A DNA stretch of 42,132 nt from Deltaproteobacteria bacterium (GTDB taxonomy: Bacteria; Myxococcota_A; UBA796; GCA-2862545). Made by a program: the position numbers and the translations under genes. The notes beneath the pieces were generated by a model. The model searched no databases. It was given only the letters and a program-made list of their open reading frames with translations, and was not told the origin of the DNA. Location: positions 125,206 to 167,337 of the forward strand of contig REDI01000060.1 of assembly GCA_007693595.1 (NCBI GenBank), read 5' to 3'. Below, in pieces: positions 21,281 to 24,366 of the stretch; position 1 is the stretch's first letter, and each line of letters starts with the position of its first letter.

Positions 21281-22006
21281 TCATCCGCCGCGGTAGGCGA
21301 GCCATCCTCGTGCCGCGAAGCGCTCGAACCAGGTCGTGATCTCGGCGGCCTCCACCTGAGGGGGGACGGTCGCCAGGGCCTCTGCGAGGACGGTCGGCCG
21401 CGCGAAGGTCTGGAGCAGCGCAGCCTCACGGGGGTCGAGCGCCTGGTCCTTGGGGCCCTCGCCGCGTTGGTAGACCGCGATCCAGACCTCGTTCAGGGGA
21501 GGGGTCGGGGGCGAAGCGGACTGAAGAACCTGCCTTCGCCAGTCATGCCAGGGGCGATGGAGGTGCAGGAGCGTCACCGAAGGGGCGAGCGCTAGCGTGC
21601 TGTCGGGACGCAGCGGCGGGAGGGGGCCGGGAGTCGCCGCGCGCGAGGCCTTTCCGACGGCGCGATCGAGGGCGACGACCTCGAGGGTGTCGCGGGTCGC
21701 ACCGCGGGCTGCGAGCCAGTCGGGGAGGGCGTCGTGCAGGTGGTAGAGCGAGGCGTGGCGGGGGGGGTGGTCGTGGAGGAAGGCCTCACACAGGGGGGCG
21801 AAGGCCTCGCCCTCGAGCGCGGCGAGGCCGGGGAGCTGGCGGCGCAGGCTCCCGAGGAAGCGGGCGCGGATCTGCCCCCGGTAGATCTGGAGCTGCCGGG
21901 CGGGGGGCAGGCAGGCGTGGGGGTCGAGCAGGGTCGGGCTCGGCGTCTCACCTTGGACGAGGGCGCGCACGACCTGCGCCCGCCAGTCTGGGGGAAGCTC
22001 GGTCAT
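21281..22006 (-). CDS. hvfC: DUF2063 protein, HvfC-like partner of a DUF692 enzyme
   Basis: A 241-residue protein. It starts at ATG 22006, overlapping the hvfB-like stop (ATGA); the frame further upstream is overlap with that gene. The N-terminal ~100 residues match DUF2063: ARQLQIYRGQIRARFLGSLRRQLPGLAALEGEAF (split here as ARQLQIYRGQIRARFLG and SLRRQLPGLAALEGEAF), then FLHDHPPRHASLYHL. Such proteins (HvfC, MbnC-related) bind the DUF692 oxidase and its precursor peptide. The C-terminal half is less conserved and contains WRRQVLQSASPP. It is the last gene of a three-gene cassette, converging on the serine hydrolase gene with an 80-bp gap. Confidence 0.85.
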   Translation of the reverse strand: MTELPPDWRAQVVRALVQGETPSPTLLDPHACLPPARQLQIYRGQIRARFLGSLRRQLPGLAALEGEAFAPLCEAFLHDHPPRHASLYHLHDALPDWLAARGATRDTLEVVALDRAVGKASRAATPGPLPPLRPDSTLALAPSVTLLHLHRPWHDWRRQVLQSASPPTPPLNEVWIAVYQRGEGPKDQALDPREAALLQTFARPTVLAEALATVPPQVEAAEITTWFERFAARGWLAYRGG

Positions 22007-22845
22007 GGGCAGGCGGCCTCGCGCACCTGGCGGGCTCGGGCGACCTCGCCGAGCAGCACGGGCAGCTCTGGGAGGGCCTCGTCCCACTCGATTAGGGTCG
22101 AGACCGGCCCGGTGCGGCGAAGGGTCTCGGCGTAGAGGGCCCAGACCTCTTCGCAGACCGGGGCGTCGTGTGTGTCGCGCAGGTGGTCGTCGAGCACTTG
22201 ATGACCCGCGAGGTGGATCTGGACCACGCGGTCGAGGGGGATCCCGTCGAGGTAGGCCCGTGGGTCAAAGCCGTGGTTGGCCGCGCTGACGAAGAGGTTG
22301 TTGACGTCGAGGAGAAGCCCGCAGTCGGCGGCCTCGACCACCCTCTTCAGGAAGGCCCACTCCGTCTGCATGGAGGCTGCGTAGCTCATGTACGACGAGA
22401 CGTTCTCGAGGGCGAAGAGGCGGCCGGTGCGGGACTGAAGCTCCCCGATCCGCCGGGCGATATGTTCGGCGACCGCGGGGGTATAGGGGACGGGGATCAG
22501 CTCGTGGGCATGCACGGTGGCAGCCGTTAGGCAGAGATGGTCGCTCATCCAGGGGGCGTCGATCTTCTCCGCCAGCAGGCAGACTCGGGCGACGTGCTCA
22601 GGATCGGGCTCACCCCCGAGGTTCAAGCCGACCGAGTGAGGCACGAGGGGCACCTTGCCCGACAACTCCTCGACGATGGAGGCCGCAGGGCCGCCCGCAA
22701 CCAGGTGGTTCTCGACGAGCAGCTCGTACCAGTCCGCCAAGGTGGGATCCGTCGCCACCGCCTCGCGGTAGCGGAGCCGAAGCCCGAAGCCTACCCCGAG
22801 GTCGGGGACGCCGAAGCGCGAGATCCGACGAGGACCAGCGCTCAG
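22003..22845 (-). CDS. hvfB: DUF692/MNIO oxidase, HvfB-like
   Basis: A 280-residue multinuclear non-heme iron oxidase-like TIM barrel if translation starts at CTG 22845. That codon overlaps the peptide gene stop (CTGA) and has GAGG seven bases upstream. The first canonical start, GTG 22758, would remove residues 1-29 including the family's first strand LGVGFGLRLRYRE. No ATG, GTG or TTG lies between them in frame. Metal-site motifs are complete: PHSVGLNLGG (H70), SDHL (H103), ENVSSY (E147, N148), DVNN (D180, N182), NHG (H191), IHLAGH (H211, H215) and EWDEALP (E253, D255). Such enzymes oxidise cysteines of precursor peptides to oxazolone/thioamide groups. The adjacent peptide is the expected substrate. 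Confidence 0.9.
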   Translation of the reverse strand: MSAGPRRISRFGVPDLGVGFGLRLRYREAVATDPTLADWYELLVENHLVAGGPAASIVEELSGKVPLVPHSVGLNLGGEPDPEHVARVCLLAEKIDAPWMSDHLCLTAATVHAHELIPVPYTPAVAEHIARRIGELQSRTGRLFALENVSSYMSYAASMQTEWAFLKRVVEAADCGLLLDVNNLFVSAANHGFDPRAYLDGIPLDRVVQIHLAGHQVLDDHLRDTHDAPVCEEVWALYAETLRRTGPVSTLIEWDEALPELPVLLGEVARARQVREAACP

Positions 22846-23168
22846 TTCTTGACCTCTTCGTCGGCCTTCTCGCCGTCAGCCTTCTTCGCCTTTTTGTCTT
22901 TGTCGTCGTCGGCCTCGCCGTCGGCCTTCTTGCCGCCGCAGCCGTGCTCGCCGCCGCAGCCGTGCTCGCCGCCGCAGCCGTGCTCGCCGCCGCAGCCGTG
23001 GCCTTCCTTCGCAGCTTCTTGCTTTCCTTCGGCGTCGGGGGCCTCGGTCTGGGTGGGGGTGGCCTGCTGGGCGTCGGTGTCGGTGGCGCCGCTACAGGCG
23101 GCGAGTCCACCGGCCATGAGCCCCGCGAGGGCGGCGTGGACCAGGGCGTGTCGAGTGTCGGAAGGCAT
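22842..23168 (-). CDS. hvfA: Small Cys-repeat precursor peptide, HvfA-like
   Basis: A 108-residue protein from ATG 23168, with GGAG a few bases upstream. It has an N-terminal signal (HALVHAALAGLMAGGLAAC) with a lipobox LAAC at C25, a polar linker, then four units of H-G-C-G-G with a six-residue period (C59, C65, C71, C77) and a K/D/E-rich tail. Position, size and Cys repeats match HvfA-type RiPP precursors, whose EGKCG cysteines are modified by DUF692 enzymes and bind copper. Here His replaces Glu/Lys ahead of each Gly-Cys, which adds metal ligands. The lipobox would hold the product in the envelope, unlike a freely exported metallophore. It is the first gene of the cassette. No convincing promoter was seen in the 118 bp upstream. 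Confidence 0.8.
   Translation of the reverse strand: MPSDTRHALVHAALAGLMAGGLAACSGATDTDAQQATPTQTEAPDAEGKQEAAKEGHGCGGEHGCGGEHGCGGEHGCGGKKADGEADDDKDKKAKKADGEKADEEVKN
22853..22856 (-). promoter_or_regulatory. Ribosome binding site for the CTG start of hvfB
   Basis: GAGG on the minus strand, seven bases before CTG 22845 and inside the last codons of the peptide gene. It supports a coupled non-canonical start rather than the downstream GTG. Confidence 0.4.
22933..23001. repeat. 18-bp tandem repeat encoding the HGCGGE units
   Basis: Three perfect copies of an 18-base unit plus a nearly complete fourth. Each encodes one six-residue metal-ligand unit of the HvfA-like peptide. Near identity at the DNA level implies recent expansion or homogenisation. 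Confidence 0.95.
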
Positions 23169-23286
23169 GGGAGCTCCAGGGGAAGGGGGCGTGGACGCTG
23201 GGGGACCAGGCCGAGGTGCCTTCAGAGCGTATCGTATGGGAAGTAAACTACGCAACGGGGGATGGGCTACCTCTGGTAGATGCGCC

Positions 23287-24366
23287 CTACCTGAAGTGCG
23301 ACTTGAGCGCGTTGTAGGCGGCTGTAATTTCGGTGTAGCGCGCGTGGATACGATCTTTCTCTTCGTCGGGGGCGTCGAGGTGCTTGAGGGGGTGGTAGCG
23401 CACCGAGAGCATGCGGTAGTGCTTCGAAAGCTCCTTGCCGGTGCGGATCTCGCCGGGCCGAAGCTCAAGCAGGGTGAGCAGGCGCTCGACCTCGCTCACC
23501 GGGGCGCTCGCGGGAGGGGGGGCCTCGTCGGGGTCGTGACTCGCGGTGGGCTGGTGACTCGCCCGGTCGCGGGAGGGGTCCCACTCGTTCCAGGCGTCGA
23601 GGTTGTCGTCGTAGTATTCTTCGTAGTTGGTACCGATGTCGGGGAGCTGGAACCTGACCCCATGCACCTCGTAGATGTGCCCCGGAAAGAGCTCTTCGAA
23701 CTCCTTTTCTTCGCCCTCGACCGGGTGGGGGTAGAACCACTGGGGCTGGCCCCGTTCGTCGAGATACCAGGCGGGGGTGTCGGGGTGGTGCTCAGGCCAG
23801 CGCAGCCAGTAGCGCTTGTCGCCGGTGCGCACGACGACGAAGCAGATCTCATAGGGCTCGTGGCTGTCGAAGCGCTCGCCCGGGTTGAGGGTGAGCGTGC
23901 GCCCGTCGAGGGTGATGAAGAGCTGATACTCCCCGTCCCAGGCTCGGGTCTCGAAGAAGTAGCTCAGGATCGACTTGTCGTACCGGCCTTCCTCGGCAGG
24001 GGCTTCGACGTCGGCGACCTCGCCCTCCCCTTGCCCGCCGAAGGCACGATCGCGCACCAAGGCCTCGAAGCGCTTGCCAGCCGTGGGCAAGCCGCGGGCG
24101 GTCTCGACGAGAGGCAGGCAGAACTGTGGTCGAGAACGACAGAGATCGGTAATGTCTTCGACGACCGTGTTGCGCTTGACCTCGAAGGGATCGCTGACGG
24201 TACCGCCGAGACGAGCCTTCTTGATCAGCCGATGGAGCTGCACCTGGTTGAGGGTCGCGAGGGCGCGGTACAGGTCGCGCACGCGAATGTAGCGGCCATC
24301 GCCGGTCCGCACGGTCTCAGTGCGTCGGTCGTAGGTGGCTTTGTCGTCGCGTCGGCTCGTCATCAT
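23287..24366 (-). CDS. Hypothetical protein with degenerate J domain
   Basis: A 359-residue protein with no recognised function. The N-terminal region (about 20-120) is basic and contains YIRVRDLYRALATLNQVQLH. A middle region (about 150-260) is aromatic-rich (FPGHIYEVHGVRFQLPDIG, WYLDERGQPQWFYP). The last ~55 residues look like a J domain: KELSKHYRMLSVRYHPL followed by RYTEITAAYNALKSHF. The invariant HPD tripeptide is HPL (325-327), which would prevent normal DnaK stimulation. It is on the same strand as the HvfABC-like genes, 118 bp upstream, so read-through is possible. It is divergent from the arginine decarboxylase gene, with 169 bp between the starts. Confidence 0.7.
   Translation of the reverse strand: MMTSRRDDKATYDRRTETVRTGDGRYIRVRDLYRALATLNQVQLHRLIKKARLGGTVSDPFEVKRNTVVEDITDLCRSRPQFCLPLVETARGLPTAGKRFEALVRDRAFGGQGEGEVADVEAPAEEGRYDKSILSYFFETRAWDGEYQLFITLDGRTLTLNPGERFDSHEPYEICFVVVRTGDKRYWLRWPEHHPDTPAWYLDERGQPQWFYPHPVEGEEKEFEELFPGHIYEVHGVRFQLPDIGTNYEEYYDDNLDAWNEWDPSRDRASHQPTASHDPDEAPPPASAPVSEVERLLTLLELRPGEIRTGKELSKHYRMLSVRYHPLKHLDAPDEEKDRIHARYTEITAAYNALKSHFR

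Follow-up and report, generated by a model that had tools for sequence, protein, structure and literature searches.

Captophorin-class MNIO enzymes (DUF692) act with their DUF2063 partners to turn Cys into 5-thiooxazole; the former oxazolin structure has been revised accordingly (PMC13097082). The FonBC pair prefers Cys-Gly and has once modified an NVCGG substrate. An Asp is the proposed catalytic base of these enzymes, and the residue after it has been tied to the choice of substrate in FonB/BufB2 (PMC13097082). Bufferins function in copper stress (PMC12452194), and NedA, an EGKCG lipoprotein precursor, is both modified and lipidated (PMC12636315). In the window, that is the whole 42,132-nucleotide stretch of DNA analysed here, three consecutive genes on the minus strand, running from 23168 to 21281, encode a precursor peptide, an MNIO and a DUF2063 partner. 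The preliminary description had reported three overlapping genes in this order between 21281 and 23168, and its coordinates proved correct: the precursor and MNIO genes share CTGA, an overlap that needs a CTG start for the MNIO, and the MNIO and partner genes share ATGA. The matches to PF05114 and PF09836 and the core repeats also bear out its view that the genes form a RiPP cassette in which an MNIO and a DUF2063 protein accompany a variant Cys-repeat precursor. An MNIO with conserved metal-site residues adjoins a DUF2063 partner, as in a RiPP operon in the captophorin sense, and immediately before the MNIO lies the gene of a secreted Cys-rich precursor, the signal peptide being assigned by eye and by homology. 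These are the sole MNIO and DUF2063 genes found in the 4.9 Mb genome, which is estimated to be 98% complete; neither a second copy of either gene nor a CKGxNxxCKG pattern was found elsewhere in it.

The precursor gene (22842..23168, minus strand) encodes 108 residues, starts at an ATG with GGAG upstream and stops at a TGA that overlaps the MNIO start. Its product is ordered as MPSDTRHALVHAALAGLMAGGLAACSG, an acidic linker, the four-unit core and a Lys/Asp/Glu-rich tail. The first 25 codons (23094..23168, minus strand) specify a predicted lipoprotein signal peptide with the lipobox LAAC (Cys25), assigned by sequence inspection and from the leaders of relatives; the preliminary description left out this predicted lipoprotein nature. 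The core array (22932..23003, minus strand) reads as one GHGCGG unit followed by three EHGCGG units, which agrees with the earlier reading of four H-G-C-G-G units rather than E-G-K-C-G. Set in register with E-G-K-C-G, the unit E-H-G-C-G has the same Glu at -3 and Gly at +1 of Cys. The core contains no Cys-Lys motif and is without the Lys that both known motif classes have. At the DNA level the core consists of 3.8 perfect 18-bp copies (Tandem Repeats Finder score 138), the units being identical save part of the first. Since tandem repeats tend to be open in several frames, the precursor frame needs separate support, which comes from the predicted signal peptide and lipobox in this frame, both with homologues in the precursors found at the corresponding place in relatives, and from a coding-like GC content by codon position. 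The precursor gave no match to the NCBIfam BufA2 model NF050166 at E values up to 10 and none to the SbtA model TIGR04081, to which nothing else in the window's genome matched either.

Each of the four core Cys has a His nearby, as had been claimed, though not directly beside it: the His sits at -2 (H-G-C). Such a His occurs at 4/4 core Cys here, compared with 17/110 in the nearest relatives and 4/68 in a separate clade with CGG cores. This regularity would suit a His-containing metallophore in which the His at -2 is a ligand, giving mixed imidazole/Cys-derived sites that would differ in affinity or in the metal they prefer. However, the units are near-identical DNA copies (save part of the first), so that the regularity arrived by duplication and is no evidence of selection or function, and relatives already have His at -2 of some Cys. 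A metallophore of this kind is thus doubtful, although copper might conceivably be bound at a site of mixed His/Cys-derived character.

The MNIO gene (22003..22845, minus strand), which is BufB-like, matches PF05114 with 284 bits. No ATG, GTG or TTG is found in its frame ahead of the conserved N-terminus, and CTG (22843-22845) is therefore the probable start; it overlaps the TGA of the precursor and has AGAGG seven bases upstream. Gene callers would place the start about 30 residues late, at GTG 22758. Two other loci, L012 and L016, share this lack of an ATG, GTG or TTG upstream of the conserved N-terminus in their MNIO frames. Functional-type positions were defined by conservation in 95% or more of 147 relatives, and the enzyme retains all 22 of them, which lends indirect support to the claim that the metal ligands are all present. 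An E-W-D-E segment (22078..22089, minus strand) comprises a conserved Glu, the proposed catalytic-base Asp and then Glu, with roles mapped by alignment position only; in CKG-type enzymes the Asp is for the most part followed by Asp, Glu, Gly or Ala. Against the NCBIfam models the enzyme scores 278.9 bits for BufB and 200.9 bits for HvfB, below the cut-offs of both (310 and 360 bits), whereas five relatives of its clade reach 323-361 bits against BufB and exceed the cut-off. The label 'HvfABC-like' is not the most fitting one, because the enzyme is closer to BufB (279 versus 201 bits) and groups with enzymes of BufA2-like precursors. The locus falls outside the HvfA/EGKCG oxazolins, with an EHGCGG core and an HvfB score under 360 bits, and also outside BufABC2 as defined, with an MNIO score under 310 bits and a precursor that has no NF050166 match and lacks the Cys-Lys of the BufA2 type, which has 6 or 12 Cys.

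The DUF2063 (PME type 1) partner (21281..22006, minus strand; 241 residues) matches PF09836 with 38.6 bits (cut-off 27.2), and its best matches are partners from the MNIO's own clade. A PDB profile search for a C-terminal RRE in the partner did not recover 3DEE, and its single-sequence AlphaFold model (mean pLDDT 46) was too poor for use. A core without the Lys of either known motif class, next to an MNIO without a canonical start codon, might be read as decayed, modification having been lost and the lipoprotein binding metal, if at all, via plain thiols and His. Yet the frames of enzyme and partner are open with conserved residues kept, the AGAGG is well placed before the CTG, the hexad repeats are clean and carry Cys-Gly, and Lys-free CGG cores adjoin other MNIOs, so that decay is improbable.

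The relatives of the locus were sought among 149 MNIO loci of the phylum, of which the 19 nearest have enzymes about 46-55% identical to the window MNIO. Sixteen of these 19 carry BufA2-type cores (CKGxNECKGxGGC-like), which in most cases follow a lipoprotein leader, for example ALAGLMAGSLSAC; two of the precursors score 40 and 29 bits against NCBIfam BufA2, both below the cut-off of 60. No precursor was recognised at L015 and L016. At L115, the contig of which begins inside the precursor, another unusual core is seen, KSSCSAENGCEAN, with KSSCSAEN[GS]C[EQ]AN repeats before the MNIO (positions 1-280). Aligned to the leaders of its nearest relatives, the window leader reaches a best score of 78, compared with a shuffled maximum of 56, and a group mean of 57.9; the mean against leaders of the CGG clade is 29.1. 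In the tree, the window MNIO groups with its BufA2-associated family with support of 99/98, on an unusually long branch (1.05 versus a median of 0.34). Tree and leader homology both point to common descent with BufA2-type loci, although in an AU test placement with the CGG clade is not rejected (p 0.276). Leader, enzyme and partner thus indicate one lineage and the core does not. The precursor of L012, one of the other loci, holds PEHGCKGMNEC, and a segment of this kind is a plausible source of the EHGC(K/G)G unit.

The long branch and the BufB score below the cut-off mean that the MNIO reaction may have changed, and with the new core they could indicate that a group other than 5-thiooxazole is made on HGCGG. 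The conserved functional-type residues are, however, all intact and the enzyme still clusters with BufB-type enzymes, which makes a changed reaction unlikely, if somewhat less so than decay of the core.

Fourteen loci make up a separate MNIO clade (L106, L116, L123, L125, L128, L129, L144, L147, L162, L166, L173, L175, L180 and L194; support 100/100), and E-x-x-C-G-G abounds in its secreted precursors, most of which are lipoproteins. Their units include EGKCGG (L128), EKSCGG (L125 and L147), EHSCGG-EKGCGG (L116), EHKCGG-EGGCGG-EGKCGG (L166) and EKKCGG-EKGCGG (L144). The precursor of clade member G239 passes the SbtA model TIGR04081 (31.6 bits, cut-off 30.5), and two further precursors of the clade come near this cut-off. 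CGG cores are also found outside the clade, at L102 and L141. Since hexad precursors of the ExxCGG type exist in the phylum, the HGCGG motif counts as one form of a broader type of core. Resemblance of the core to this clade (EHSCGGEKGCGG in L116, EHKCGG in L166), together with the AU result, could suggest that the operon or its core was transferred from an ExxCGG/SbtA-like clade and not rewritten in place. The best tree, the leader and the partner nevertheless all indicate the operon's own family, and in the window MNIO the catalytic Asp is followed by Glu, which some CKG-type enzymes also have at this place, whereas the ExxCGG clade mostly has Asn or His. As the loci of that clade form one lineage, this difference counts as a single association with core type rather than a tested correlation. 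Transfer is accordingly very unlikely, more so than any of the alternatives above. A selenocysteine extension of CGG-type precursors was considered and rejected, as reading beyond the stops gave no continuing repeats. Elsewhere among the loci, long lipoproteins directly before the MNIO at L132, L133 and L165 carry C[KR]GMNxCGGxSCV and then a CxxCH haem-type motif, and cytochrome-like MNIO substrates are a possible reading of these motifs; L177 and L192 have (TEAGCPG)n or (TSAGCPG)n repeat precursors adjoining MNIO genes.

The tandem motif HGCGGxHGCGG has one site in the window's genome, the precursor, and none of the other genomes among 379 of the phylum contains it. A further scan, for HGCGGxHGCG, covered contigs of 84,980 species with an exact six-residue period and at most 8 kb per match, and possibly omitted the window's own and very near genomes. 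It gave 33 stretches; none had a convincing MNIO match by tblastn, and most look like low-complexity or unrelated frames. As tandem HGCGG was found in the window's genome only, an HGCGG family is not demonstrated. A lack of related peptides beside other DUF692 genes, which would have spoken against the preliminary description, is not what is seen: leader homologues lie at the nearest MNIOs and ExxCGG hexad peptides at another MNIO clade. No mention of EHGCGG, EGKCGG or EKSCGG was found in a literature search, outside which the supplementary tables of the captophorin/MNIO papers fell; the letters HGCGG in five papers on sheep lentiviruses and small ruminants are presumably primers.

Among the operon's neighbours are genes for a beta-lactamase-fold protein, a DnaJ-like protein and an arginine decarboxylase; copper genes were not seen there. 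No DoxX adjoins the operon, no consensus promoter or terminator was found at it, and no upstream operator common to the relatives scored above shuffles. At 23267-23291, at the end of the DnaJ-like gene and upstream of the precursor, lie GGTAG-N7-CTACC-AGA-GGTAG half-sites, which were not found upstream of the relatives' precursors. The one same-genus genome searched is without an MNIO.

On balance, we favour the explanation that the locus is a BufABC2-lineage operon whose core has been rewritten, and that it probably makes a lipidated, copper-buffering product of the captophorin/bufferin kind. The precursor would be synthesised in the cytoplasm and presented to the MNIO by the DUF2063 partner, and the MNIO would oxidise the core Cys, most likely to 5-thiooxazoles; the oxazolone/thioamide chemistry of the preliminary description is out of date, since HvfA-type products have been revised to 5-thiooxazole (PMC13097082). 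After export and lipidation at Cys25, the product would sit anchored in the envelope of the cell; there its modified Cys groups may bind excess copper, perhaps aided by the His at -2. The array itself may have arisen when an EHGCKG-like segment, of the kind seen in L012, was amplified. The NVCGG precedent suggests that the missing Lys is not prohibitive in principle, though FonBC belongs to the Lys-Cys group; together with the retained E-G-K-C-G register, NedA and the bufferins, it leads one to expect an envelope-anchored, lipidated product that buffers copper. The long branch, the BufB score, the AU result, the lack of a copper neighbour and the MNIO-less same-genus genome are points against this explanation.

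The locus resembles a natural swap experiment, with leader, partner and enzyme lineage retained and the core replaced. Comparison with the CKG-core relatives and the ExxCGG clade would reveal which MNIO residues permit a new core, and the same comparison of the HGCGG operon would show whether a nearby His modulates how the modified Cys binds metal. A tentative extension, which we regard as rather unlikely, is that in a single lineage a Cys-Lys bufferin became a lipopeptide of tandem Glu-His-Gly-Cys-Gly-Gly units, whose metal sites combine imidazole with thiooxazole and whose metal preference has shifted, the MNIO co-adapting.

Among described systems, the locus shares with the bufferins BufA2/BufB/BufC (Buf2, Cys-Lys captophorins) the A-B-C gene order, a BufB-like MNIO, a DUF2063 partner, a secreted Cys-rich precursor and the leader and enzyme lineage common to the BufA2-type loci of the family, but it differs in having only four core Cys, all in HGCGG hexads and none in Cys-Lys, in the sub-threshold BufB score and in the missing DoxX. 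With the oxazolins and fontiphorin (HvfABC and FonABC; EGKCG, Lys-Cys captophorins) it has in common short tandem repeats, Glu at -3 and Gly at +1 of Cys and the MNIO with DUF2063, whereas H-G instead of G-K precedes the Cys, the period is six residues and the enzyme is nearer BufB. The SbtA thio(seleno)oxazole RiPP precursors (TIGR04081) and the ExxCGG hexad precursors likewise have repeated xxCGG units next to an MNIO, although the window precursor is without a TIGR04081 match and has a different leader and an enzyme of a different clade. Finally, the lipidated MNIO RiPPs NedA and DybA would resemble it in their lipobox precursors, and NedA is modified as well as lipidated (PMC12636315); their core motif and lineage are different, and lipidation of the window precursor is a prediction.
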